Positions 2,632 to 22,551 of a DNA stretch of 22,974 bases are shown here, one piece after another. The notes beneath the pieces are model-generated. The model did not search any database. It saw only the letters and a list, made by a program, of their open reading frames with translations, and was not told the DNA's origin. The DNA is taken from IMG/VR virus record IMGVR_UViG_3300025655_000310, positions 1-22,974 of that record. One strand, written 5' to 3'. Source of the DNA: a virus. Numbering within the stretch: position 1 is the stretch's first letter; every line of letters begins with the position of its first letter. Made by a program: the position numbers and the translations under genes.

Positions 2632-2662
2632 TATTAACGTGAAAACACATTTTTTTGTTTTT
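2632..2662 (-). promoter_or_regulatory. Candidate phage late (ECF-type) promoter 1, for the 754-aa tail protein
   Basis: On the minus strand AAAAAC (2662-2657) is followed by exactly 17 nt and then CGTTAATA (2639-2632). The ATG at 2625 begins 6 nt further on. The same layout occurs before four other late genes in the window. AAC near -35 and CGT near -10 with a 16-17 bp spacer is the general form of ECF sigma promoters. Confidence 0.7.
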
Positions 2663-2666
2663 ATAC

Positions 2667-2697
2667 TTGCGTAGTATTATAAAATGGTTTATATTTG
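2667..2697 (+). promoter_or_regulatory. Host-type Bacteroidota promoter for the small plus-strand gene at 2734
   Basis: TTG at 2667-2669, 20 nt spacer, then TATATTTG at 2690-2697. This matches the Bacteroidota housekeeping consensus TTG / TAnnTTTG. The predicted leader is an A/C-rich CAAA-type stretch without secondary structure or Shine-Dalgarno site, as is common in this phylum. It lies back to back with late promoter 1. Confidence 0.75.
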
Positions 2698-2928: not shown

Positions 2929-2937
2929 GTAACATCA

Positions 2938-3019
2938 ACCCCTAAAAAGAAAGGAAACCTTTGTTGTCGCAAATGTAGGACGTGTTAATGATTGTATCGC
3001 TAATCCGATTTTAGGGGGT
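2938..3019. other. Structured non-coding segment with long-range 9-bp stem and inner hairpin
   Basis: The 150 nt between the small gene (ends 2928) and the end of the 474-aa gene (3079) contains CCCCTAAAA at 2939-2947, which pairs perfectly with TTTTAGGGG at 3009-3017. Inside lies AAAGG-AAA-CCTTT (2950-2962). A further hairpin ACCTT...AAGGT lies at 3058-3075 and is followed on the plus strand by ATTTTAA. No ORF fits. It could be the 3' end of the plus-strand transcript (terminator or small RNA) or a barrier to late antisense transcription. The pairing is seen; the role is inferred. Confidence 0.45.
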
Positions 3020-3078
3020 ATTAAGTCATAGGGATTAAATTAACATAAGACTGGCTGACCTTGAAAAGCAAAGGTATT

Positions 3079-4503
3079 TTAAACCACTTGCACCAAATCA
3101 CTACTATATTTAAAAGCAATTTCGTAGTTTATTAGCTTGTCAACTATGCGGGTCTTTTTATCCACGCTATTAGTATCGACTTCCATAGGCTCACCGTTTT
3201 CTAAATACACATAGTCGCTTAATAGTAAGTCATCAATAGCTGCGTTTTGCTGCTCGCTAATGTAGCCCGTTGTAAGTTGTAACGACCTACGCGCGTTCGT
3301 GTCCGTATTGCGATATAAATGGCGCGTAGTGTCATAAGTGCCACCGTTAACGTAGTTGTTCTTAAAATTCCCCTCACGAGTTACCTGCAAACTTTCTTTT
3401 TCGGCTTTAAAGAATGTAAGGTTTTCCCATACACCGTACCTATTTAAGAAACGGACTGGTTGTGTTTTATACAAGCACTCATCTATCAACTCAAAAATAT
3501 GTGTTCCGTTTACTTCTACAAAGTCATCGGTAAGCCCCGCAGTAGAAAAACAAACATATTGTATCTGCTTAGTTATATCACCGCTTGCTATTAATGTATA
3601 TAACCCTAAAAAATCGCCAGCTGGATTGGTAAATACTATTGAAGTTGTAACCGCGTTTGTATTTACTGGTACTATTATAAGTTCACCGCGCTTAACTTGG
3701 TGGCGTTGCGAACTCAAAAGAATAAGCTGGCTATATTTAGGCGTTGCACCTTGTTGGTAGGTTGCATAGCCTAGTGTGGTAACCGCTTGATTTAAAATAG
3801 GCTGGTCTATTGCTTCCAGATTGTTACGTACAGATATGCTGCTAGTAATTACAGACCCCGCTACGCTATCAACTATTCCAGCCGTGAACGTTGGAAGTTT
3901 AGGCGTTATAAAGTCGCGTGCGTATTGCGTTATCGCTAGGTCAAAATTCTCCCAGTTTGCACTTGGTCGTAGTTGAGTAGATTGATAATCTGGTGTGCGT
4001 TGCTGGTAGTCGGGGTCTATTAGGTCTGAATTGAACCACATCTTAACCGTTTGACTAACCACGTTGGGGTCTACAATAGGACGCGTTACGTAGTAGTTAG
4101 AACGCGCTGGAATGATACCTTCCGTTCGTGGTATATTTATCGCATCGTTATTTATAACAAAAGTAGCACGGCTTGTGTTCGGTTGCCCTATTACTAAATC
4201 GGTGAATGATATTTCCTGCCTTAGGCTACCTATTGTAACATTGTTGCCTATTATAGATACCTCATATTCCAAAGGGTCGAGGTCTAAATCAAGCGCGTCT
4301 TTATACAATCCAGCTTGCGTAACGTCATCCGTACCAGTTGAAAACTCGCCAAATTGCGTGCGGGTTGCTACTACCCTTTCGACTACAACCGAAAGACCAG
4401 CGTTTTGAATTGAATCAAAAGCATTAATAAAGATTAATGGCGTTGCTGTATTTGGCTCGAAAGCATCTGAGAATTTAATAGTAATTGTTGAGAATACTGG
4501 CAT
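3079..4503 (-). CDS. Virion structural protein, probable tail/baseplate component (474 aa)
   Basis: A 474-aa beta-rich protein with no enzyme motif, signal peptide or membrane segment. The segment around residues 350-385 (FLNRYGVWENLTFFKAEKES) is of a type I recognise from structural proteins of Bacteroidota tailed phages; no closer function can be named. The ATG at 4503 is 4 nt downstream of the CGTTAATA box of late promoter 2, which fixes the start. It is flanked by two plus-strand small genes, so it forms a one-gene late unit that then reads leftwards toward the 754-aa tail protein. Assignment to tail rather than head is from its place after the tail-completion genes. Confidence 0.6.
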   Translation of the reverse strand: MPVFSTITIKFSDAFEPNTATPLIFINAFDSIQNAGLSVVVERVVATRTQFGEFSTGTDDVTQAGLYKDALDLDLDPLEYEVSIIGNNVTIGSLRQEISFTDLVIGQPNTSRATFVINNDAINIPRTEGIIPARSNYYVTRPIVDPNVVSQTVKMWFNSDLIDPDYQQRTPDYQSTQLRPSANWENFDLAITQYARDFITPKLPTFTAGIVDSVAGSVITSSISVRNNLEAIDQPILNQAVTTLGYATYQQGATPKYSQLILLSSQRHQVKRGELIIVPVNTNAVTTSIVFTNPAGDFLGLYTLIASGDITKQIQYVCFSTAGLTDDFVEVNGTHIFELIDECLYKTQPVRFLNRYGVWENLTFFKAEKESLQVTREGNFKNNYVNGGTYDTTRHLYRNTDTNARRSLQLTTGYISEQQNAAIDDLLLSDYVYLENGEPMEVDTNSVDKKTRIVDKLINYEIAFKYSSDLVQVV

Positions 4504-4504
4504 A

Positions 4505-4533
4505 TTGTATTAACGAAAAATGTTGTATATTTG
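4505..4533 (+). promoter_or_regulatory. Host-type promoter for the small plus-strand gene at 4556
   Basis: TTG 4505-4507, 18 nt, TATATTTG 4526-4533. The final G (4533) of the -7 box is the complement of the invariant C of the late promoter 2 -35 box on the other strand, so the two promoters physically overlap. Confidence 0.75.
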
Positions 4534-4538
4534 TTTTT
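4508..4538 (-). promoter_or_regulatory. Candidate phage late (ECF-type) promoter 2, for the 474-aa structural protein
   Basis: Minus strand AAAAAC (4538-4533), exactly 17 nt, CGTTAATA (4515-4508), then 4 nt to the ATG at 4503. The core boxes and spacer match the other four copies. Confidence 0.75.
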
Positions 4539-4555: not shown

Positions 4556-4759
4556 ATGCAAATAATAGACACGCAACACAATATAGGTGAACTAGTTTTC
4601 CTTATAACCGACCCAGACCAGTACCCGCATTTAGTAACTGGCTACCTTGTTAGGAATGACGGCATAAGGTACGCGCTATCAATGAAAGGAAGCGAAACGT
4701 ATCACTATGACTTTGAAATTATAAGCGAAAAAGATATTATTAAGGCGTTATCTGAGTAA
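4556..4759 (+). CDS. Small antisense accessory (moron-like) protein, 67 aa, unknown function
   Basis: Not recognised. ATG at 4556 is preferred over an in-frame TTG at 4550. The 67-aa product starts MQIIDTQHNIGELVFLITDP and has an alternating beta-strand pattern with a central GYLVRNDGIRY segment. This resembles the size and strand pattern of small SH3-like beta-barrel domains, but I do not claim homology. It has its own Bacteroidota-type promoter 23 nt upstream. Its 3' end overlaps the convergent minus-strand tail-completion gene by 12 nt, so late transcription from 5695 would be antisense to it. Second of three genes of this layout. Confidence 0.7.
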   Translation: MQIIDTQHNIGELVFLITDPDQYPHLVTGYLVRNDGIRYALSMKGSETYHYDFEIISEKDIIKALSE

Positions 4760-5245: not shown

Positions 5246-5695
5246 CTAGCAGAAACGCATCACACTATCCGAAATTTCAACAGTCAAAGTCATAGACCAG
5301 CCGATAAGGTTATTTTCCACGCGTTCCGTTTTCTGTATGTTTGCATCGCCTAGAATAGAAATGCCATCGCTAACGCTTAGCTTGTTATAAACGCGCCTAA
5401 GTACGTAGAGCGTTGTGTTGTAAACGTCCTGCTCGTTATCGTTACCTATAAACTTCTGCCCGTTCTCAATCTCTTTGCTAAAATCTACCTGGTCAAGGCT
5501 AAACAACTCTAAATTAATCTGAATCACGTTATCTAAAAACGTTCCGTCGTTTGCTTCTATATGTGCAAGCGGGTAGATGTCTTTACGGTTTAGGTCGGTG
5601 CTACTCAAGTCCACGCCAGTAGTAACCGTATTGCAATCTACGTCGGCATCCAGCAAACTCTTAATGTAGTCTAGTAATAAATAGTATCCGTTCAT
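5246..5695 (-). CDS. Probable tail terminator/completion protein (149 aa)
   Basis: A 149-aa acidic protein beginning MNGYYLLLDYIKSLLDADVD. It carries a segment PLAHIEANDGTFLDNVIQIN (residues ~42-61), an N-D-N-E-Q-DVYNT element and a C-terminal NNLIGWSMTLTVEIS. Such short alpha/beta proteins with an N-terminal helix and a C-terminal W-x-x-x-x-x-V strand occur beside gp10-like proteins in Bacteroidota phages and are usually taken to be tail terminator or completion proteins (gpU-like). ATG at 5695 lies 4 nt after late promoter 3. The role is inferred from size, place and pattern. Confidence 0.55.
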   Translation of the reverse strand: MNGYYLLLDYIKSLLDADVDCNTVTTGVDLSSTDLNRKDIYPLAHIEANDGTFLDNVIQINLELFSLDQVDFSKEIENGQKFIGNDNEQDVYNTTLYVLRRVYNKLSVSDGISILGDANIQKTERVENNLIGWSMTLTVEISDSVMRFC

Positions 5696-5699
5696 AGTA

Positions 5700-5729
5700 T
5701 ATTAACGTGAAATAGCTTATATTTGTTTT
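5700..5729 (-). promoter_or_regulatory. Candidate phage late (ECF-type) promoter 3, for the tail completion genes
   Basis: Minus strand AAAAC (5729-5725), exactly 17 nt, CGTTAATA (5707-5700), 4 nt, ATG at 5695. G5725 is shared with the -7 box of the opposing plus-strand promoter. Confidence 0.75.
5718..5725 (+). promoter_or_regulatory. Host-type -7 box for the small plus-strand gene at 5742
   Basis: TATATTTG at 5718-5725, 16 nt before the ATG. No clean TTG is found at the expected -33 distance, so the promoter is weaker on paper than those of the other two small plus-strand genes. It overlaps the -35 box of late promoter 3. Confidence 0.6.
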
Positions 5730-5741
5730 AAATTCAATAGC

Positions 5742-5984
5742 ATGATAGTCAAAATTAAAAGCCGCGCGCATAACGATAAAGTTCAAGAGTACTTAATTAA
5801 TAAGGGCTATAACATTCACACCATACCATTTAGGAATGGTGAGTTATATTGCTACACTTATACAGGTAACTTTTACCACCCTTACGACCCGCCAAAAGAA
5901 AGCGAGTTGACCAACTTATTTAATGACGATTTTGAACTAGACTTACAACTTAAAGAACGATTGATTAAGCACTTTAACTCTTAG
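5742..5984 (+). CDS. Small antisense accessory (moron-like) protein, 80 aa, unknown function
   Basis: Not recognised. An 80-aa protein starting MIVKIKSRAHNDKVQEYLIN with a GYNIHTIPF segment and a Tyr-rich middle (LYCYTYTGNFYHPYDPP), ending in an acidic then basic helix. The -7 box TATATTTG lies directly upstream. Its last 11 nt overlap the end of the frameshifted tail chaperone extension on the opposite strand. It is the third copy of the same arrangement: a single plus-strand gene placed between late units, with its promoter overlapping the next late promoter. The three proteins share no visible sequence similarity, so the arrangement rather than the gene is what recurs. Confidence 0.7.
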   Translation: MIVKIKSRAHNDKVQEYLINKGYNIHTIPFRNGELYCYTYTGNFYHPYDPPKESELTNLFNDDFELDLQLKERLIKHFNS

Positions 5985-6668
5985 GCGCGTTCAATTTAGT
6001 AACATCGCTTTGATATGCTAGGAAGTAAAGTATTGCACCTAGTGGCTCTTTTTCAATGCGCTCAAGCTTAAAGTAATCGCCGCCAGCCATAACATTAAAA
6101 GTGTGATACCAGCCCCACTTTAAGCCAAAGCCCTCGACCATATCCGCGTTGGTTTGCTTGCTGCTTACGCTGTAGAGTTCTGGATAAAGTTCGTTAAGTC
6201 GTTGCCTAAATGATAAAAAAAAACCACACTACTCGTATAAGCCGAAAGCGGTGCATCTAGCATTTGAGTAACCCGATCCGCTGCAAATGGCTTAACTGAA
6301 TAGAACACGCCTGCCTTGCGCTTAATAGGTCTGTACATTGCATTAACAAATTCCGCTGCCGTTGTTACGTCCTGTATTGAACTTTCGGCAATAGCAAACG
6401 CGCCACTTTCTATCTGGTCCAAATTAGGTACAAAGCCATACTCCACCCCATTTAGTGTAAACCGCTTTACGTGAGTATCTTGCTCCGATTGTAAAGCCGT
6501 AACTATGCAAACTAAAGCTTCGTCATAAACGGACTGCGGTAACTCTGCAAGCGTTTCTGGTGTAATGTTTAGGTATATTGCCATTTGCTCGCGTTCGGGC
6601 TTCTCTTGCGCTTCTATGTACTGCCTTAACGTTATATCGTTTTGGCTTGTTGGGATTCTTAGTTTCAT
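5974..6668 (-). CDS. Tail assembly chaperone, -1 frameshift fusion product (about 231 aa)
   Basis: If ribosomes slip -1 on the U9 run at 6223-6215, translation leaves the short frame after residue 151 and continues for 80 codons (LSFRQRLNELYPELYSVSSK ... KLNAPKS) to a TAA at 5976-5974. The extension holds a WGWYHTFNVMAGGDY segment and a LGAILYFLAY segment, which look like conserved protein sequence rather than random frame. Siphovirus tail chaperones are commonly made as a short form and a -1 fusion (lambda gpG/gpGT), which bind the tape measure during tail assembly. Without the shift this 190-nt stretch would be the only unexplained space here; with it, the stop packs against the convergent small gene. 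A homopolymer assembly error would look the same. Confidence 0.65.
6165..6668 (-). CDS. Tail assembly chaperone, short form (gpG-like)
   Basis: The 167-aa zero-frame product begins MKLRIPTSQNDITLRQYIEA and includes FTLNGVEYGFVPNLDQIESG (70-89) and MYRPIKRKAGVFYSVKPF (111-128), a pattern seen in small tail chaperone-like proteins of Bacteroidota phages. It would ride with the tape measure during tail assembly. The ATG overlaps the TGA of the upstream 52-aa gene (ATGA), so it is translationally coupled. The last 16 codons after the slippery run are the alternative C-terminus. No catalytic motifs. The chaperone call rests on the frameshift, the small size and the location between terminase and tail completion genes. 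Confidence 0.6.
   Translation of the reverse strand: MKLRIPTSQNDITLRQYIEAQEKPEREQMAIYLNITPETLAELPQSVYDEALVCIVTALQSEQDTHVKRFTLNGVEYGFVPNLDQIESGAFAIAESSIQDVTTAAEFVNAMYRPIKRKAGVFYSVKPFAADRVTQMLDAPLSAYTSSVVFFYHLGNDLTNFIQNSTA
6215..6223 (-). promoter_or_regulatory. Slippery run (U9) for -1 ribosomal frameshifting
   Basis: The message reads GUU UUU UUU UAU in the zero frame, giving a classical U-UUU-UUU heptamer. A shift by -1 here opens an 80-codon extension. I see no strong hairpin directly downstream. Confidence 0.6.
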
Positions 6669-8303: not shown

Positions 8304-8672
8304 TTACTTATACTTACTAGCTATACTATCAATTGCCATTATAAGCTGCGACCATGCACTAGCACCGCAAGTCCTGCAAGGTGATACGTTGGTCTGCCTT
8401 ATTGAATTATAGGTGTCCTCTATTAATGTCATATCGTCATCCTTGAGCGTGTTACCGTTCCACTCTTTGCCCCATTGTTCCCAGCTTTGGAATTGCTCTT
8501 GTGTCATTTCGTCTTTAACCGAGTTGTAAGGGATTAGCTTGTTAAGCTTGTTCTGTCGCTTCTTACATGATTCACATGGTTCAATGCCTGCCCATTTAGT
8601 AACCTTTGCGATTGTATCGCCTAGACCCTTAGAGGCTGGCTTGGTTGCTTTCTTTTTCTTAGGTGTTGCCAT
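8304..8672 (-). CDS. Conserved CxxC protein upstream of the terminase genes (122 aa)
   Basis: Function unknown. The N-terminus is Lys-rich (MATPKKKKATKPASKGLGDT). Residues 33-36 form CESC followed by KKRQNKLNKLIPY, and a second pair CRTC occurs at 99-102, so it probably binds a metal ion with four cysteines. The GLGDTIAKVTK...C..CKKRQ..LN pattern is familiar to me from small proteins next to terminase genes of Bacteroidota phages. It is the first gene of the packaging block and its ATG lies 4 nt behind late promoter 4. It might be DNA-binding or a head accessory protein; neither is shown. Confidence 0.65.
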   Translation of the reverse strand: MATPKKKKATKPASKGLGDTIAKVTKWAGIEPCESCKKRQNKLNKLIPYNSVKDEMTQEQFQSWEQWGKEWNGNTLKDDDMTLIEDTYNSIRQTNVSPCRTCGASAWSQLIMAIDSIASKYK

Positions 8673-8676
8673 ATTA

Positions 8677-8706
8677 TATTAACGTTAAAGTGTGGTTTTT
8701 TGTTTT
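8677..8706 (-). promoter_or_regulatory. Candidate phage late (ECF-type) promoter 4, for the packaging block
   Basis: Minus strand AAAAC (8706-8702), exactly 17 nt, CGTTAATA (8684-8677), 4 nt, ATG at 8672. It lies directly after the stop codon of the sigma-like gene and its -35 box touches it, so a promoter of the class the sigma may recognise follows the sigma gene itself. Confidence 0.75.
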
Positions 8707-9184: not shown

Positions 9185-9516
9185 AGTATTGTAATTATGT
9201 GTTTAAATTCCTCAACGCTGCGAACTAAATAGTAACTAAATCCTTGCGCTTCAATTAATGACTGCCATTGCTTTTGCTTTGCGGATTGCGTTCCCTTTGC
9301 TGTTTTCCATTCAATCATAAAAGCTTTGCCGCTTAGGTACAAAACCATATCGGATCGCCCCTTTTGCAAACCCATTGCTTTATTCTTTGCGCCCTCTATT
9401 ACATTGCGGCTGTTGTTGTGGTTGTAATTAAGCAAGCCGCGTAAGTGTGGGTAAGTGTTATGAAACCAACGATAGGCGTCTGCTTGTAGTCTGTCCTCTC
9501 CGCTTGGTAAACTCAT
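9169..9516 (-). CDS. VRR-NUC family nuclease (small, stand-alone)
   Basis: A 115-aa single-domain nuclease of the PD-(D/E)XK fold. The core GLQKGRSDMVLYLSGKAFMI with EWKTAKGTQSAKQKQW follows: D56, E69-x-K71 and Q83 are the predicted metal and catalytic residues. The C-terminal GFSYYLVRSVEEF matches the usual ending of the family. Stand-alone phage VRR-NUC proteins are thought to act as structure-specific nucleases, for example on recombination junctions. It starts inside the stop region of the upstream 71-aa gene (4-nt overlap) and overlaps the sigma gene, so it is part of one operon. Confidence 0.85.
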   Translation of the reverse strand: MSLPSGEDRLQADAYRWFHNTYPHLRGLLNYNHNNSRNVIEGAKNKAMGLQKGRSDMVLYLSGKAFMIEWKTAKGTQSAKQKQWQSLIEAQGFSYYLVRSVEEFKHIITILCSSF

Positions 9517-9728
9517 AAATTTAAAGCAAAATCTTCAGCCTCTTCTATTGTTTCAAAATAGCCATCGTGCATCTTAATGTAAAAAGGACACAAAGGCGTT
9601 TCGGCTACCACCTCGTAACCTTGTGCTTTGTGCGTTATGTTGTAATAGCTAGGTGGAATATATCCAAAATATGCAGCGGCTAAATAAATAAAGTAGCCTA
9701 TTGCTATGCTTGTTAGTATTAGTGTCAT
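9513..9728 (-). CDS. Small membrane-anchored protein, 71 aa, unknown function
   Basis: Not recognised. Residues 1-24 (MTLILTSIAIGYFIYLAAAY...) form one hydrophobic segment, so it is probably anchored in the inner membrane with the rest outside or in the cytoplasm. The tail has FYIKMHDGYFETIEEAEDFA, which looks like a short beta-alpha element. It is preceded by a host-type promoter-like sequence and overlaps the nuclease gene by 4 nt. No lipobox is present. Confidence 0.65.
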   Translation of the reverse strand: MTLILTSIAIGYFIYLAAAYFGYIPPSYYNITHKAQGYEVVAETPLCPFYIKMHDGYFETIEEAEDFALNL

Positions 9729-9787: not shown

Positions 9788-11230
9788 TTATTTATTTCTT
9801 AACTGCATTTGATACTCCACCCACTTAGGTGAATATCCTTTGTATTTAGCGTAATCTTTTAGTTGCTCTTTGTTTTGCAAATTGTAAAATATCCAGTTTT
9901 TAGAGTAACCTTTTGCCGTTGCAAGCTGTTCTAGTTCCTCAAAACTTGCGCCCTGTGCTGCTTGCTTTACTTGGTCATATGAAAGTAGTCGCAATTCAGC
10001 TATTACCCTTTCCTGTATTTCTGCTTTGCTAGGCGGGAATACATGACCGCAATACTCGCACTCCTTTGCTTGTGTCGAAAGATACGCGTTGCAATTAGGA
10101 CATTCCTTTATAGGGCTAACTCCTAAACTTTTACGCGCTCGCTTTGGCGGCTGTAAAGACCATTCCCTATCCTGTTCCCAAAATCCATGCGTGGCTATGT
10201 TGTTTCCAAAATCTAGGATAGTGAAGGTGCTTTTAGTGGGTGTGGTTCTGCTTCCTCTACCTACCATTTGTAGGAATAAAGGCAGCGACTTGGTAGCGCG
10301 GTAAAGTATCACCACCTCGATAGTCGGCTCATCAAAACCAGCCGTTAGTATTCCCATGTTACTAAGTAGCGCGTTGGGTGTTTCCTTAAACCATTGCAGC
10401 GTTTCCCTACGTTCCTTTGTTGAGGTATTGCCGTCTAGGTGCTTAGCGGGAAGCCCCTTATCTTTAAGCGATTGCACTAGGGTCTTGCTACTTTCAATGC
10501 TACTTGCGAAAATGATAGCTTTCTGATTAGGCGTGTGCTTAATGTAGTTTTCATAAACCCCGTGATACAACTTAATCTCATCCATCCTTTTGCCGACTTG
10601 CTGGCTATCCCAGTCGCAGCCTTTGGTTTTCACCCCACTTAGGTCTATGCTTATGCCGTAAGACTTTGGGCGCGCTAGTTTGCCTAACTCGATTAGGCGC
10701 GAAACCTGTGCAACCTCCACCATTGACTGGTAAAATGCGTCCAGCGCGGGCTGGTTCTTTTCACGGTGTGGGGTTGCCGTTACACCTATCACTATAACAT
10801 GAGGTGGTAGTGCTGCAAGTAGCGTATTAAAATCGCATCGATGGCACTCATCAACTATTACCACATCCAGACCATTAGCGAGCCATTGCGCATATAAGGG
10901 CTTTTTAAAGCGTCTTACAAGCGTTTGTGTCATCGCCACGTATAAACTACCTGCTAGCGTTTTGGGTGCGTAAGAGGGCTTTATGTGAATCGGGCTGAGG
11001 TTAAAATGTTCTAGCGTTCCACCAGCTTGGGTGAGTAGTTCGCTGCGATGCGTTAATATTAGTACGCGCTTTTGGTTTGCTATTATGCGGCTGGTGAGGT
11101 AACTGAACATGACAGTTTTTCCTGCGCCAGATTATGTAGGGGCGCATAGTACCAATCTACTCGCGCCCCCTTTTATTTTATCTCTTAAATCTTGTACGGC
11201 TTGTTCTTGATACGGATATAACTTTATCAT
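9788..11230 (-). pseudogene. SF2 DEAD/DEAH-type helicase interrupted by a stop in Walker A
   Basis: From ATG at 11230 (MIKLYPYQEQAVQDLRDKIK, then GGASRLVLCAPT) the frame meets TAA at 11134-11132, then resumes SGAGKTVMFSYL and stays open for 440 more codons from Met at 11110 to 9788. Helicase motifs after the stop are intact: DECH, VTATPHR, QMVGRGSR, and a C-terminal CPNC...CEYC zinc ribbon. Removing the six bases TAATCT restores APTGAGKT, the canonical motif I. A protein started at 11110 would lack the ATP-binding loop. It would unwind DNA during phage replication or recombination. The frame is otherwise undamaged, so the lesion is recent, suppressed, or a sequence error. An HNH endonuclease gene ends 1 nt before the ATG. 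Confidence 0.8.
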
Positions 11231-11231
11231 T

Positions 11232-11639
11232 TTAAATGTTATCAGTTATATTTTTGATGCAGTATTTGTTCCTTTCATCAAAAGCGCCATTATCAAAAGC
11301 GTGTCTCATGTTTTCTTTGTTAGTCATCCACTCTAAATTAGAAACTTTATTATCTAACTTATCCATGTTTATATGATTTACTGTAGGTTTATTTTCTGGA
11401 TTAGGTATAAATGTTTCCGCTACCAATCTATGAACTGATTTAGTATATTTTTTAGATGCTAACGATAAATAAACACGCTTATAACCTTTTTTATTAAAAC
11501 CAGCTTTTAATATGGTTTGAGAAAAGTTAGCAACCCTACCATCTTTATAAATAGTTTGCGACTTCTTTCTTCTTATTCTTCCTAAATCGCTCGCCTCATA
11601 ATAGCCAGCAAAAGAGGGTATGTCTTTCCATTTTTCCAT
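11232..11639 (-). CDS. HNH homing endonuclease with NUMOD4 domain (free-standing)
   Basis: A 135-aa protein. Residues 1-30 (MEKWKDIPSFAGYYEASDLG, RIRRKKS) are a NUMOD4 DNA-binding motif. Residues 68-115 include SVHRLVAETFIPNPENKPTV then NHINMDKLDNKVSNLEWMT, an HNH_3 catalytic core with H70, N88-H89 and the NLEW signature. It would cut a related, endonuclease-free phage to copy itself. It is clearly richer in A+T than its neighbours and sits between a 23-codon remnant of the helicase start (11748-11677) and the second helicase start (11230). A TATATTTA box lies just upstream of its ATG. Confidence 0.9.
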   Translation of the reverse strand: MEKWKDIPSFAGYYEASDLGRIRRKKSQTIYKDGRVANFSQTILKAGFNKKGYKRVYLSLASKKYTKSVHRLVAETFIPNPENKPTVNHINMDKLDNKVSNLEWMTNKENMRHAFDNGAFDERNKYCIKNITDNI

Positions 11640-11676
11640 AGTATAAATATACGATTTTTTATTTAATTAATAACGA

Positions 11677-11748
11677 TTATTTCCCTTGCGCTATTTCCTG
11701 CCTTAGTTCTTTTACTGCTTGTTCTTGGTATGGGTAGAGATTAATCAT
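11677..11748 (-). pseudogene. Remnant 5' end of the helicase gene (23 codons)
   Basis: ATG at 11748 opens MINLYPYQEQAVKELRQEIA then QGK and a TAA at 11679-11677. It aligns residue for residue with the start of the downstream helicase (MIKLYPYQEQAVQDLRDKIK) but with many synonymous and some amino acid changes. It is cut off just where the helicase continues toward its ATP-binding loop. Its ATG overlaps the stop of the upstream 43-aa gene, as a real operon start would. I read it as the original 5' end, displaced when the homing endonuclease arrived. Confidence 0.75.
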
Positions 11749-11872
11749 TCTCTAAATCTGATACAACTTCAACTCTTTCAAAGCATCCGCAATTATGACC
11801 GCAACTATCCATGAAACATCCATTTCCATCGTTTCCTGTGCACTCTCCTATGTATTTGTATTTCTTTACCAT
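11741..11872 (-). CDS. Small Cys-rich protein, 43 aa, unknown function
   Basis: Not recognised. ATG at 11872-11870, TAA at 11743-11741. The product starts MVKKYKYIGECTGNDGNGCF and continues MDSCGHNCGCFERVEVV; five cysteines (11, 19, 24, 28, 30) and H26 could hold one zinc ion. The stop overlaps the start of the helicase remnant by 8 nt, which supports translation of both in the ancestral operon. The upstream 20-45 nt carry a 27-bp dyad. A zinc-binding accessory to replication is conceivable, but only the position suggests it. Confidence 0.6.
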   Translation of the reverse strand: MVKKYKYIGECTGNDGNGCFMDSCGHNCGCFERVEVVSDLEND

Positions 11873-16004: not shown

Positions 16005-16441
16005 TGTTCTTGTCTTTGTTTTTTGTTAATGTTTGATTTGTGGTATAATTCTATTCGTGGTAAAAATTCTATTACTTCTAGTTCTGTCATTTCGCTTAAA
16101 ATCTTAACAGCTTTCTCGATTGGTTTAGATAGCTTAAAATCTTCTAAGTCTTGAGTTTTTACGCCCGTGTTAATTTTAAAATGTATTAAAGCATCTTCAT
16201 AGCATTCTCTGACACTTGCGCTATCCTTATGGTACATATCAAACTTTTTTAAGCTATTTATAACAGTAGCATGATTAACGCCAACTGAACGCCCTATTTC
16301 GTTTAATGCTAAATTTGTGTTTTCGCGTATTAATTTAAAATAGGTTGCTCTTGCATTTATGTTATTAGTTTCCCTGTGTCGGCTTCTTAAATTTGCTCTA
16401 AAGTAATCTTCTACAAATGACTTAACCTCTGATAACCTCAT
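15974..16441 (-). CDS. Stand-alone DnaA domain IV-like DNA-binding protein
   Basis: A 155-aa protein. Residues ~18-68 (NINARATYFKLIRENTNLAL, NEIGRSVGVNHATVINSLKK) match the DnaA domain IV helix-turn-helix, in which the 'DHTTV' signature binds the DnaA box; here it reads NHATV (56-60). There is no AAA+ ATPase domain, so it is not a full initiator. The remainder is a charged helix ending in a Gln-rich tail (QEQWQQQKQQQA). It may bind a phage origin, hijack host initiation sites, or repress. It lies second in the operon driven from 16745-16774. Confidence 0.75.
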   Translation of the reverse strand: MRLSEVKSFVEDYFRANLRSRHRETNNINARATYFKLIRENTNLALNEIGRSVGVNHATVINSLKKFDMYHKDSASVRECYEDALIHFKINTGVKTQDLEDFKLSKPIEKAVKILSEMTELEVIEFLPRIELYHKSNINKKQRQEQWQQQKQQQA

Positions 16442-16721
16442 GCGCTATAACTTTAATCTGGTTTAACCTTTCTTGTGAATCCTGTACGTGTTTAGCTTGA
16501 GCGGTTTCAATTGCCTTAACGCGCTCCTTTAATTTTTCGGGTTTATCGCTGTGTAAGTAGTTAGGCAATTTAACACCCGTAGCTATTGCAGCCGATTGTT
16601 TAACGCCAGCACTTGCAAGGTCGTAAACTTCTTTTAGTTTGTCCTTAACGGTGATTGTGGTAACGCCGTTTTTATTTTCGTGTATAGTAGTAACACGTGG
16701 GAAATGTTTAATTTGTTTCAT
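16422..16721 (-). CDS. Small basic protein at the head of the replication operon, unknown
   Basis: Not recognised. A 99-aa Lys/Glu-rich protein beginning MKQIKHFPRVTTIHENKNGV with a probable helical C-terminal half (KLKERVKAIETAQAKHVQDS). It has no cysteines and no membrane segment. It is the first gene behind the best host-type promoter in the block, 23 nt from the -7 box, and it overlaps the DnaA-like gene by 20 nt. Being first suggests an early regulatory or host take-over role, but nothing in the sequence proves this. Confidence 0.7.
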   Translation of the reverse strand: MKQIKHFPRVTTIHENKNGVTTITVKDKLKEVYDLASAGVKQSAAIATGVKLPNYLHSDKPEKLKERVKAIETAQAKHVQDSQERLNQIKVIAHEVIRG

Positions 16722-16744: not shown

Positions 16745-16774
16745 CAAATATAAACCTATTTATAACTTATGCAA
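16745..16774 (-). promoter_or_regulatory. Host-type promoter of the replication/recombination operon
   Basis: Minus strand TTG (16774-16772), 19 nt, TATATTTG (16752-16745), a full match to the Bacteroidota housekeeping consensus. It stands 23 nt before the ATG at 16721. It is expected to be read by the host polymerase early in infection. Confidence 0.8.
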
Positions 16775-21408: not shown

Positions 21409-21974
21409 TATGCGTATGTTAATCTGTTTCCAGTCCCGTCTGTTAGTATTTCTAGTAGTTCGCTTAGTAAATAGTTGTTTTCGGTTGCTATGCTAAAACC
21501 AGCTGCCACTAAATCTGTGAAAAGTAACGACTTGTAGCGCTCATTTGCTTCTATGCTAATGGTATACCCGTTTAGGTCATTTTTTGCGCCACCCGTTGCT
21601 GCCGTTGCACTTTCAATTCTACATCCATTTTCAGCACCTACGAGCCTAAATAAGCCATCCCACCCCTCAATAATAAGCCCTAGTTCAATACCTATAAGCG
21701 TTTCTATTTCTATGGTGTCCGATAGCGTTTGCTTTGTCAAAGTCGCGCTAAATGACTGCGACCAATCGCCTAAATCCTGCGCGCGGTTCTCGCTAAAACT
21801 AGACGCTTGCACATTGTAAGCATAAACCAAAGTAGGTGGATAGCTTGTAAGGGAAACGCCCCTTTGCCCTCGTGCCTGCCTTGCTACTTCCTGTGAGTAC
21901 TTGAAAATATACACCCTTTTAACGCCACCTAAACCATCTTTACATGGCTCAGTCCTACCTCGAAATATCCTCAT
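21408..21974 (-). CDS. Conserved virion protein, possible tail component (188 aa)
   Basis: A 188-aa protein beginning MRIFRGRTEPCKDGLGGVKR. A middle region with GLFRLVGAENGCRIESATAA (~110-130) and NDLNGYTISIEANERYKSLL is beta-rich. The pattern 'PC-x-x-GLGGVK-x-VY-x-F' at the start and 'NG-Y-x-I-x-x-E' near the end is one I associate with small virion proteins of Bacteroidota phages. It overlaps the upstream connector gene by 20 nt and meets the fibre gene at TAATG. Head-tail joining or tail tube are both possible; I cannot separate them. Confidence 0.55.
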   Translation of the reverse strand: MRIFRGRTEPCKDGLGGVKRVYIFKYSQEVARQARGQRGVSLTSYPPTLVYAYNVQASSFSENRAQDLGDWSQSFSATLTKQTLSDTIEIETLIGIELGLIIEGWDGLFRLVGAENGCRIESATAATGGAKNDLNGYTISIEANERYKSLLFTDLVAAGFSIATENNYLLSELLEILTDGTGNRLTYA

Positions 21975-22515
21975 GATACCACTTTTTTACCATGCGACCA
22001 GGCAAGTAAAAACCGCCTACTATATTAACATCCCTATTCGGGTGCTGGTCAAAGTCATTCGGCTGGTCGTCTTGATATTCTGGAATTTGCACCCCTACAT
22101 CACATAGCCACTTTTGCAACCTACCTACCCAAACATCTGCCTTAGCTTTGTAGTTATTTGCAAAAAATCTCACTTCGTCAATAGGCGCGCTTTCGCTATT
22201 TGTTGGTAACGCTTTATAAATGCCACTATCCTGTACGTTATACTGACCCGTAAGCACGTACTCGCTAAATACGGCATTGTATAAAATAGGCTTTAAATAA
22301 TTTTCGTGTACTGTTTCATATAAGCCAGTAAGCGGGGTTTGGCTTAGGATGTCCGCTGCAATTTTCTCATATAGTGCCGTGCCTATTATATCCTCAATTA
22401 GATACCTTTGCTGCTCATATATAATGTATATGTAGCGGTCGGTATCTACATTGCCACCAATAGGCGTAAATTTTACGATTTCGGCTGGAGTTATGAAAAG
22501 TGCTTGTTGATTCAT
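21955..22515 (-). CDS. Probable head-tail connector / neck protein (DUF6712-like)
   Basis: A 186-aa protein that opens MNQQALFITPAEIVKFTPIG, GNVDTDRYIYIIYEQQRYLI and DIIGTALYEKI. The 'I-x-x-x-E-I-x-x-x-T-x-I-G-G-N-V-D...I-x-x-x-LG-x-x-LY' pattern is that of small helical connector proteins found next to capsid genes in Bacteroidota phages, analogous to gp6-type head completion proteins. The ATG at 22515 is 7 nt behind the CGTTAATA box of late promoter 5. It overlaps the next gene by 20 nt. The DUF name is from memory and not checked. Confidence 0.65.
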   Translation of the reverse strand: MNQQALFITPAEIVKFTPIGGNVDTDRYIYIIYEQQRYLIEDIIGTALYEKIAADILSQTPLTGLYETVHENYLKPILYNAVFSEYVLTGQYNVQDSGIYKALPTNSESAPIDEVRFFANNYKAKADVWVGRLQKWLCDVGVQIPEYQDDQPNDFDQHPNRDVNIVGGFYLPGRMVKKWYHEDISR

Positions 22516-22522
22516 GTTATAT

Positions 22523-22551
22523 TATTAACGCATTTTGCGTTGTTTTTGTTA
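22523..22551 (-). promoter_or_regulatory. Candidate phage late (ECF-type) promoter 5, for the virion/lysis block
   Basis: Minus strand TAAC (22551-22548), exactly 17 nt, CGTTAATA (22530-22523), 7 nt, ATG at 22515. The -35 box is slightly weaker (ATAAC not AAAAC) and a second AAAAAC lies 6 nt closer. The -10 box is embedded in a hairpin, AACGCA-TTT-TGCGTT (22527-22541). Confidence 0.65.

Follow-up and report, generated by a model that had tools for sequence, protein, structure and literature searches.

Two junctions of the DNA analysed here, which is from a marine bacterial virus, carry a host-type promoter element and an element of a late phage promoter on opposite strands of the same bases, and this superposition of motifs is confirmed. 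On balance we favour the explanation that these are superimposed divergent promoters of different sigma specificity, which would exclude each other sterically, and that the small genes beside them are cargo placed on a late promoter. The host reader and the virus reader could then probably not use the shared DNA at the same time.

The window, i.e. the whole stretch analysed, is a virus record of 22,974 bases. Its nearest named relatives are the Nonlabens phages P12024L and P12024S (DNA identity 75% and 74%, respectively, over 5% of the window), and the window is a piece of DNA from a phage related to these two. Eight minus strand proteins of the window were compared, and they lie in the same gene order in P12024L and P12024S, in the opposite reading direction. 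Structural genes occupy the minus strand with three small plus strand genes between them (Table 1). The host-type box at 16745-16752 heads a run of genes, of replication type by the P12024 annotation, that ends with the gene of a sigma protein, and directly behind this gene stands a late promoter. An Rfam search of the whole window gave no match, and between 2500 and 6300 neither intrinsic terminators nor sigma-70 sites were found above chance.

Two further features of the window were observed. At 11001-11760 on the minus strand an in-frame TAA stands right before the Walker A motif of a helicase (CAPT*SGAGKT), as it does in the sister phage L006; a 135-aa ORF (11232-11639), which we take to resemble an HNH homing endonuclease, adjoins the interrupted helicase, and a second copy of the helicase N-terminus follows. 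The 64-aa gene is followed by 150 non-coding bases (2929-3078) with a long-range inverted repeat, CCCCTAAAA ... TTTTAGGGG, that was spotted by eye.

Table 1. Promoter elements, small divergent genes and the sigma gene of the window
Feature	Position	Strand	Remark
Host-type -7 box TATATTTG	4526-4533	+	Small gene 4556-4759; last four bases are the complement of late -35 CAAA
Late ECF-type -35 AAAACAAA	4530-4537	-	
Late -10 CGTTAATA	4508-4515	-	4 nt before ATG of 3079-4503
Possible host -33 TTG	4505-4507	+	18 bp spacing; missing in two sister phages
Host-type -7 box TATATTTG	5718-5725	+	Small gene 5742-5984; shared register, without -33 TTG
Late -35 AAAACAAA	5722-5729	-	
Late -10 CGTTAATA	5700-5707	-	Before 5246-5695
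Host-type -7 box TATATTTG	2690-2697	+	Small gene 2734-2928; 40 bp from late -35, side by side
Late -35 AAAACAAA	2654-2661	-	Before 361-2625
Late -10 CGTTAATA	2632-2639	-	Before 361-2625
Late promoter without divergent gene (control)	8677-8706	-	Between sigma-gene stop codon and start of 8304-8672
Late promoter without divergent gene (control)	22523-22551	-	Before 21955-22515
Host-type -7 box TATATTTG	16745-16752	-	Before 16422-16721, first gene of the run ending with the sigma gene
Small gene, 67 aa	4556-4759	+	pN/pS 0.07 and 0.15 against two sisters
Small gene, 80 aa	5742-5984	+	pN/pS 0.17 and 0.17 against two sisters
Small gene, 64 aa	2734-2928	+	
ECF-like sigma factor, 159 aa	8705-9184	-	Pfam, PHROG, model, Foldseek

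The initial annotation had read TATATTTGTTTT at two junctions as a host -7 box and, on the opposite strand, as the region of a late -35, and both elements were indeed present. The G said to be shared is there as well, G4533 and G5725 each pairing with the C of AAAAC, and at both sites TTTT directly follows TATATTTG. The description of the third junction (2632-2697) also held, with the two promoters side by side. The term face-to-face was wrong, because the transcripts diverge; as the directions of transcription point away from each other, a convergent geometry was rejected. From the positions of the consensus motifs we estimate the start-to-start distance at the shared sites to about 32-33 bp, and by this estimate the starts are close enough for mutual exclusion of polymerases, as in bidirectional promoters. 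The reading of both directions by one holoenzyme, which also characterizes such promoters, is not seen here, as the motifs by their sequence belong to different sigma classes.

The late motif AACAA-N15-CGTTAA has six perfect matches in the window, all on the minus strand; the scan tolerated one mismatch, a tolerance at which 1.43 matches are expected, and six were reached in 1 of 100 shuffles. Five of the six sites just precede the ATG of an ORF that is 60 aa or longer, the sixth (6626-6651) is located within a coding ORF, and decoy spacings gave no such sites in the window or in any of the other rows of the comparison. Together the five window sites and six sites of P12024L read (A/T)AACAAA-N13/14-CGTTAA followed by ATG. 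The distance from the C of AAC to CGTT is 17 bases in 10 of these 11 sites (16 at P12024L 24739), and from the end of CGTTAA to the ATG it is 5-9 bases in all of them; motif, spacing and ATG register are near-invariant among close relatives. CAAA is present in nearly every late -35, the exceptions being one site each in C1195, D and P12024L. With CGTTAA so close to the ATG the late mRNAs should be almost leaderless, which is unusual and counts against our favoured explanation; in Flavobacterium psychrophilum leaderless mRNAs make up 5.5% of the mapped mRNAs (PMC9723704).

Late promoters without a divergent gene were seen to be packed between genes, often with the upstream stop codon as part of the -35 (TAAAACAAA) and with the start codon a few bases after the -10. 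Examples are the two controls of Table 1 and the sites L071 668, L073 6004 and L192 2968. In a narrow literature search we found no promoter description for P12024-like phages (PMC8776804 contains neither 'promoter' nor 'sigma factor'). A de novo motif search in TerL relatives with other sigma types gave nothing convincing save AAAACAAA-N12-CGTTAA in L059 and L090, two distant contigs with spacer 13 that were excluded from the counts.

The sigma protein matches Pfam Sigma70_r2 (PF04542) with an E-value of 1.4e-8 and 34.8 bits, against a gathering cut-off of 24, and a PHROGs family annotated as 'RNA polymerase sigma factor' (E 6.7e-5). A sequence search of solved structures gave nothing significant, the best match being the ECF sigma SigE (E 0.28). 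An AlphaFold2 model built from 19 own sequences reached a mean pLDDT of 78.4 and a pTM of 0.42, and all six Foldseek matches at E <= 0.001 were ECF sigma structures, aligned over 143-170 columns with a TM-score of only 0.34-0.39. Low scores of this kind would not be surprising for two domains joined by a flexible linker; a low-confidence linker lies at 71-82 of the model. Region 4 was not detected by Pfam in this protein, and C-terminal helices are present in the model. With its 159 aa and two helical parts the modelled protein appears to hold only regions 2 and 4, without 1.1 or 3, as is the rule for ECF sigma factors. ECF -35 elements carry AAC.

In nine distinct records at least one late site occurs together with a full-length sigma like that of the window (53-100% identity), and a tenth with a late site, L036, has a partial sigma of this type. 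Loci with more distant sigmas have no late site of AAAAC-N17 spacing. Eight late-site loci gave no sigma match (L066, L071, L094, L110, L116, L129, L131 and L136); L094 and L116 are parts of P12024L, where the sigma is present, and the other six are short fragments. The AAAAC-N17-CGTT motif travels with the window-type sigma, and from the motif and this co-occurrence we infer that the phage sigma recognises it. Most of the loci L009-L033, L037 and L039-L061, which are TerL or sigma relatives, were observed to have a small region-2 sigma with a divergent C-terminus and no AAAAC-N17-CGTT; each such group of relatives may have its own late promoter code.

The late-type promoters might instead be read by a host ECF sigma, as flavobacteria have promoters with a CGT -10 box that are ascribed to ECF sigmas (PMC9723704). 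We regard this as highly improbable: among phages the motif tracks the type of phage sigma, and in the two flavobacterial records with the stringent motif (one genome per species) it heads ORFs of 3 and 27 codons only. Searches with the stringent motif gave 86 stretches in viral contigs, many of which match by chance, and 14 stretches when one genome from each of 84,980 cellular species was searched. Twelve of these 14 head no ORF of 60 aa, and the two that do are in unrelated lineages.

On the host side, the TTG at -33 that belongs to the flavobacterial primary-sigma consensus was found at a spacing of 17-23 bp in only one of 12 shared-site sequences, at 4505-4507, and these sites as a group lack it. 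The 12 rows of an alignment of shared sites were chosen for having the box and provide no test of it. The exact TATATTTG of both junctions agrees with the TAnnTTTG at -12 to -5 of flavobacterial primary-sigma promoters, for which a variant class TAnnTTGY and a median 5' leader of 24 bases are described (PMC9723704). The gaps from box to ATG of 22, 16 and 36 bases at the small genes fit this leader length. In the window TATATTTG occurs six times in total, against 2.53 expected, a number reached by 5 of 100 shuffles; the number of copies alone is weak evidence, but the placement is not. Four of the six window copies are intergenic, where 4.5% of positions are (p 5.7e-5), and so are 8 of the 12 copies in P12024L, where 6.2% of positions are (p 8e-8), counts that include the junction boxes (three of the window's four and three of P12024L's eight). 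The remaining intergenic copies in both phages precede genes that we presume from their type to be early. The related TATATTGC was observed before two divergent genes of 98 and 100 aa (L004 25978 and L110 2710) and also before the window gene 9513-9728; it fits the TAnnTTGY class SM5 of Flavobacterium psychrophilum (PMC9723704).

For the comparison with relatives, the late-type sites of all loci were gathered (134 raw, 62 unique). After sisters had been collapsed by hand and unrelated matches removed, there were 15 late promoters with a divergent ORF and 22-23 without, i.e. 23 in the test of the shared register and 22 in the 75-bp test, which has one D-clade site fewer. Merged rows were 3300022200_003077 and _005000 with the window, P12024S with P12024L, and L192-L196 together; L082, L086, L087, L119, L122, L138, L148, L151 and L161 were left out as contigs with pattern hits but no recognised relationship. 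P12024 gp46, a 26-aa ORF, and the truncated gene of 3300000418_000042 were scored as 'without' gene.

Among these lineages, which were picked with the sequences already in view and are not wholly independent of each other, an exact TATATTTG on the opposite strand, overlapping the -35 or at most 75 bp upstream of it, was found at 12 of the 15 promoters with a gene and 3 of the 22 without (Fisher p 8e-5; mean in shuffles 0.19). Two of the three remaining promoters with a gene have TATATTGC, and one (L144, 7059) has no recognisable host box. As for the promoters without a gene, one exact box lies in a coding region of the D clade, one in a gap without a visible divergent ORF (L190 3541), and the third, in 3300000418_000042, is the sole exact case in the shared register, kept although only some 11 codons of the small gene remain.

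This last case is also an argument for TATATTTG being accidental, with ATATA as mere late-promoter spacer and the small genes read from elsewhere or by read-through; the DNA is A/T-rich, and nearly every late -35 supplies TTTG, with or without a gene. However, TATA and hence the exact box stand in the shared register at 6 of 15 promoters with a gene against 1 of 23 without (p 0.0096), divergent genes with a box at another offset also mostly have the exact TATATTTG, and TATATTTG is strongly intergenic. Chance sharing was rejected, and we consider an accidental box very unlikely. The looser TAnnTTTG in the shared register gives 6 of 15 against 3 of 23, which is not significant (p 0.065).

A natural experiment that favours a tie between host box and divergent gene is offered by L191, which has CAAATATA at a late promoter together with a divergent ORF of 175 aa. 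In L192-L197 the promoter of the same gp45-type gene (69-73% protein identity) has no CAAATATA and no adjacent divergent gene; at the position of the box five of these loci have CAAAAACA and L197 has CAAAAATA, and in L197 an 80-aa ORF on the opposite strand begins 158 bases upstream. Taken together, the relatives support two superimposed promoters.

The initial annotation had further suggested that each junction could act as a two-way switch. This reading is supported in part: the sequence bears out that there are two classes of promoter, that the phage has a sigma gene, that the small genes are real, and that the elements physically overlap and share a C/G pair needed by both motifs. The shared register, however, is not a fixed device. 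Only 6 of the 15 lineages share the bases, and six others with a gene have the exact box 11-60 bp upstream. A conserved obligatory switch was rejected. Over all lineages the box lies 0, 11, 18-19, 38-40 or 60 bp from the late -35. As the shared register is one of several, the arrangement looks more like early cargo genes borrowing a late promoter than like a conserved dedicated switch.

The varying offsets also fit a reading in which the overlap is economy only: intergenic space is short, the motifs are A/T-rich, and both promoters could be active, without a regulatory role for exclusion. At the gp41 junction of the B-clade phages L035 and L036 there is ample space, and the box lies at a distance of 60 bp. 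At the shared sites, though, the elements coincide and simultaneous occupancy should be physically impossible, and phage late promoters are usually strong; we find this reading rather unlikely. Basal bidirectional promoters of E. coli, which speak for it, are described as showing no measurable competition; it arises there once one of the two directions is strongly activated, and not otherwise (Warman et al. 2026, PMC12825309). The phage sigma would have just this effect on one side.

The 67-aa and 80-aa genes are under purifying selection, as judged by pN/pS from simple counts (Table 1). Neither has a Pfam or PHROG family at E 0.01 or a tblastn match in named phages. The 64-aa gene has no relative by tblastn in loci L001-L185 and L186-L223, and it is absent from a sister sharing the same late gene; a sub-threshold match to PCNA_C (E 0.0025) and a weak PADLOC match (E 0.016) were not believed. 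When 16 small proteins from the window, P12024L and one B-clade phage were compared with each other, a set without the divergent ORFs of the C clade, L191 and 3300000418_000042, there was a single and weak match below E 0.05, between a 42-aa ORF of the B clade and P12024 gp44 (31% over 32 aa, E 8.5e-4 in this tiny set). Both lie at the gp45 junction, and if the match is real, the gene would have stayed in place while its box shifted out of the shared register to a site 18 bp off, or vice versa. Overall, the small genes resemble exchangeable cargo. Outside the sister phages, the only relative of the 67-aa gene that was seen is L011 49-201 (45% over 51 aa), which is near the sigma gene in a phage that is more distantly related.

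Several known systems resemble this arrangement in part. In the bidirectional promoters of E. coli, elements on opposite strands likewise overlap, the two polymerase orientations are sterically exclusive, and repression follows strong activation of one side, but one polymerase form reads a pseudo-symmetrical sequence (PMC12825309), whereas here a host -7 box lies on an ECF-type -35 of the phage. Phage phi29 has its early promoters A2b/A2c and the late A3 on opposite strands of one promoter region, and the early side shuts as the late side opens; it relies on the proteins p4 and p6, which act at promoters read by the host polymerase (PMC3100819), where we predict a phage sigma. Phage sigmas with late promoters of fixed motif, as here, are described for phiEco32 (gp36) and 7-11 (gp47), the phiEco32 type as ECF, with the differing motifs GTAAtg-16-aCTA and tAATGTAtA (PMC8948821, PMC7881722). 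Neither 'overlap' nor 'divergent' appears as a word in the main text of PMC8948821, according to which early transcripts of 7-11 stay constant throughout infection, and therefore a shut-off of the small genes should not be taken for granted. Overlapping divergent promoters of unequal strength form a switch also in Pr/Pc of pLS20, which is a plasmid and has the regulator RcoLS20 and a DNA loop in place of a second sigma (PMC4207663). The present case, a variant form of the bidirectional promoter, is most fairly described as overlapping divergent promoters for two sigma factors.

Under the explanation that we favour, host RNA polymerase with its primary sigma would early in infection read TATATTTG and transcribe the small plus strand gene, and from the box at 16745-16752 it would, judging by the motifs, transcribe the replication operon and the phage sigma. 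The ECF-like sigma would then redirect polymerase to AAAAC-N17-CGTTAATA, giving near-leaderless transcripts of the structural genes in the opposite direction. With start sites only some 33 bp from each other and with overlapping elements, one bound polymerase would exclude the other, and the small gene would be turned off by strong initiation at the late promoter; from this geometry, exclusion with a hand-over from early to late is likely. The overlap could have arisen because the late -35 contains CAAA, the complement of TTTG: a gene landing behind a late promoter would need just TA at two further positions to have a host box. This would explain why sharing recurs without being universal, and it would make the small genes exchangeable early cargo that borrows a late promoter. 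Besides the near absence of leaders, several results count against this explanation: the rarity of the -33 TTG, the late-site loci with no sigma match, the missing Pfam match to region 4, the exact boxes near promoters without a gene, the three divergent genes that lack an exact box, and the non-significant outcome with TAnnTTTG.

Further, we speculate, as a tentative possibility, that the late promoter is a self-timing slot for cargo. As AAAACAAA mirrors half of a host -7 box, an early gene could be added by two base changes and would be shut off automatically when the phage sigma comes, without a repressor. If so, it would be inherent in the promoter code of these phages that small genes are exchanged at one and the same late promoter. 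For P12024-like phages the analysis gives a predicted late-promoter code, AAAAC-N17-CGTTAATA-N4-ATG, together with a sigma gene. The junctions offer a concrete case in which two oppositely directed sigma factors would compete for shared bases. They also suggest how phages could time accessory genes by simple means: the late promoter in front of such a gene has a -35 that already supplies half of a host promoter.
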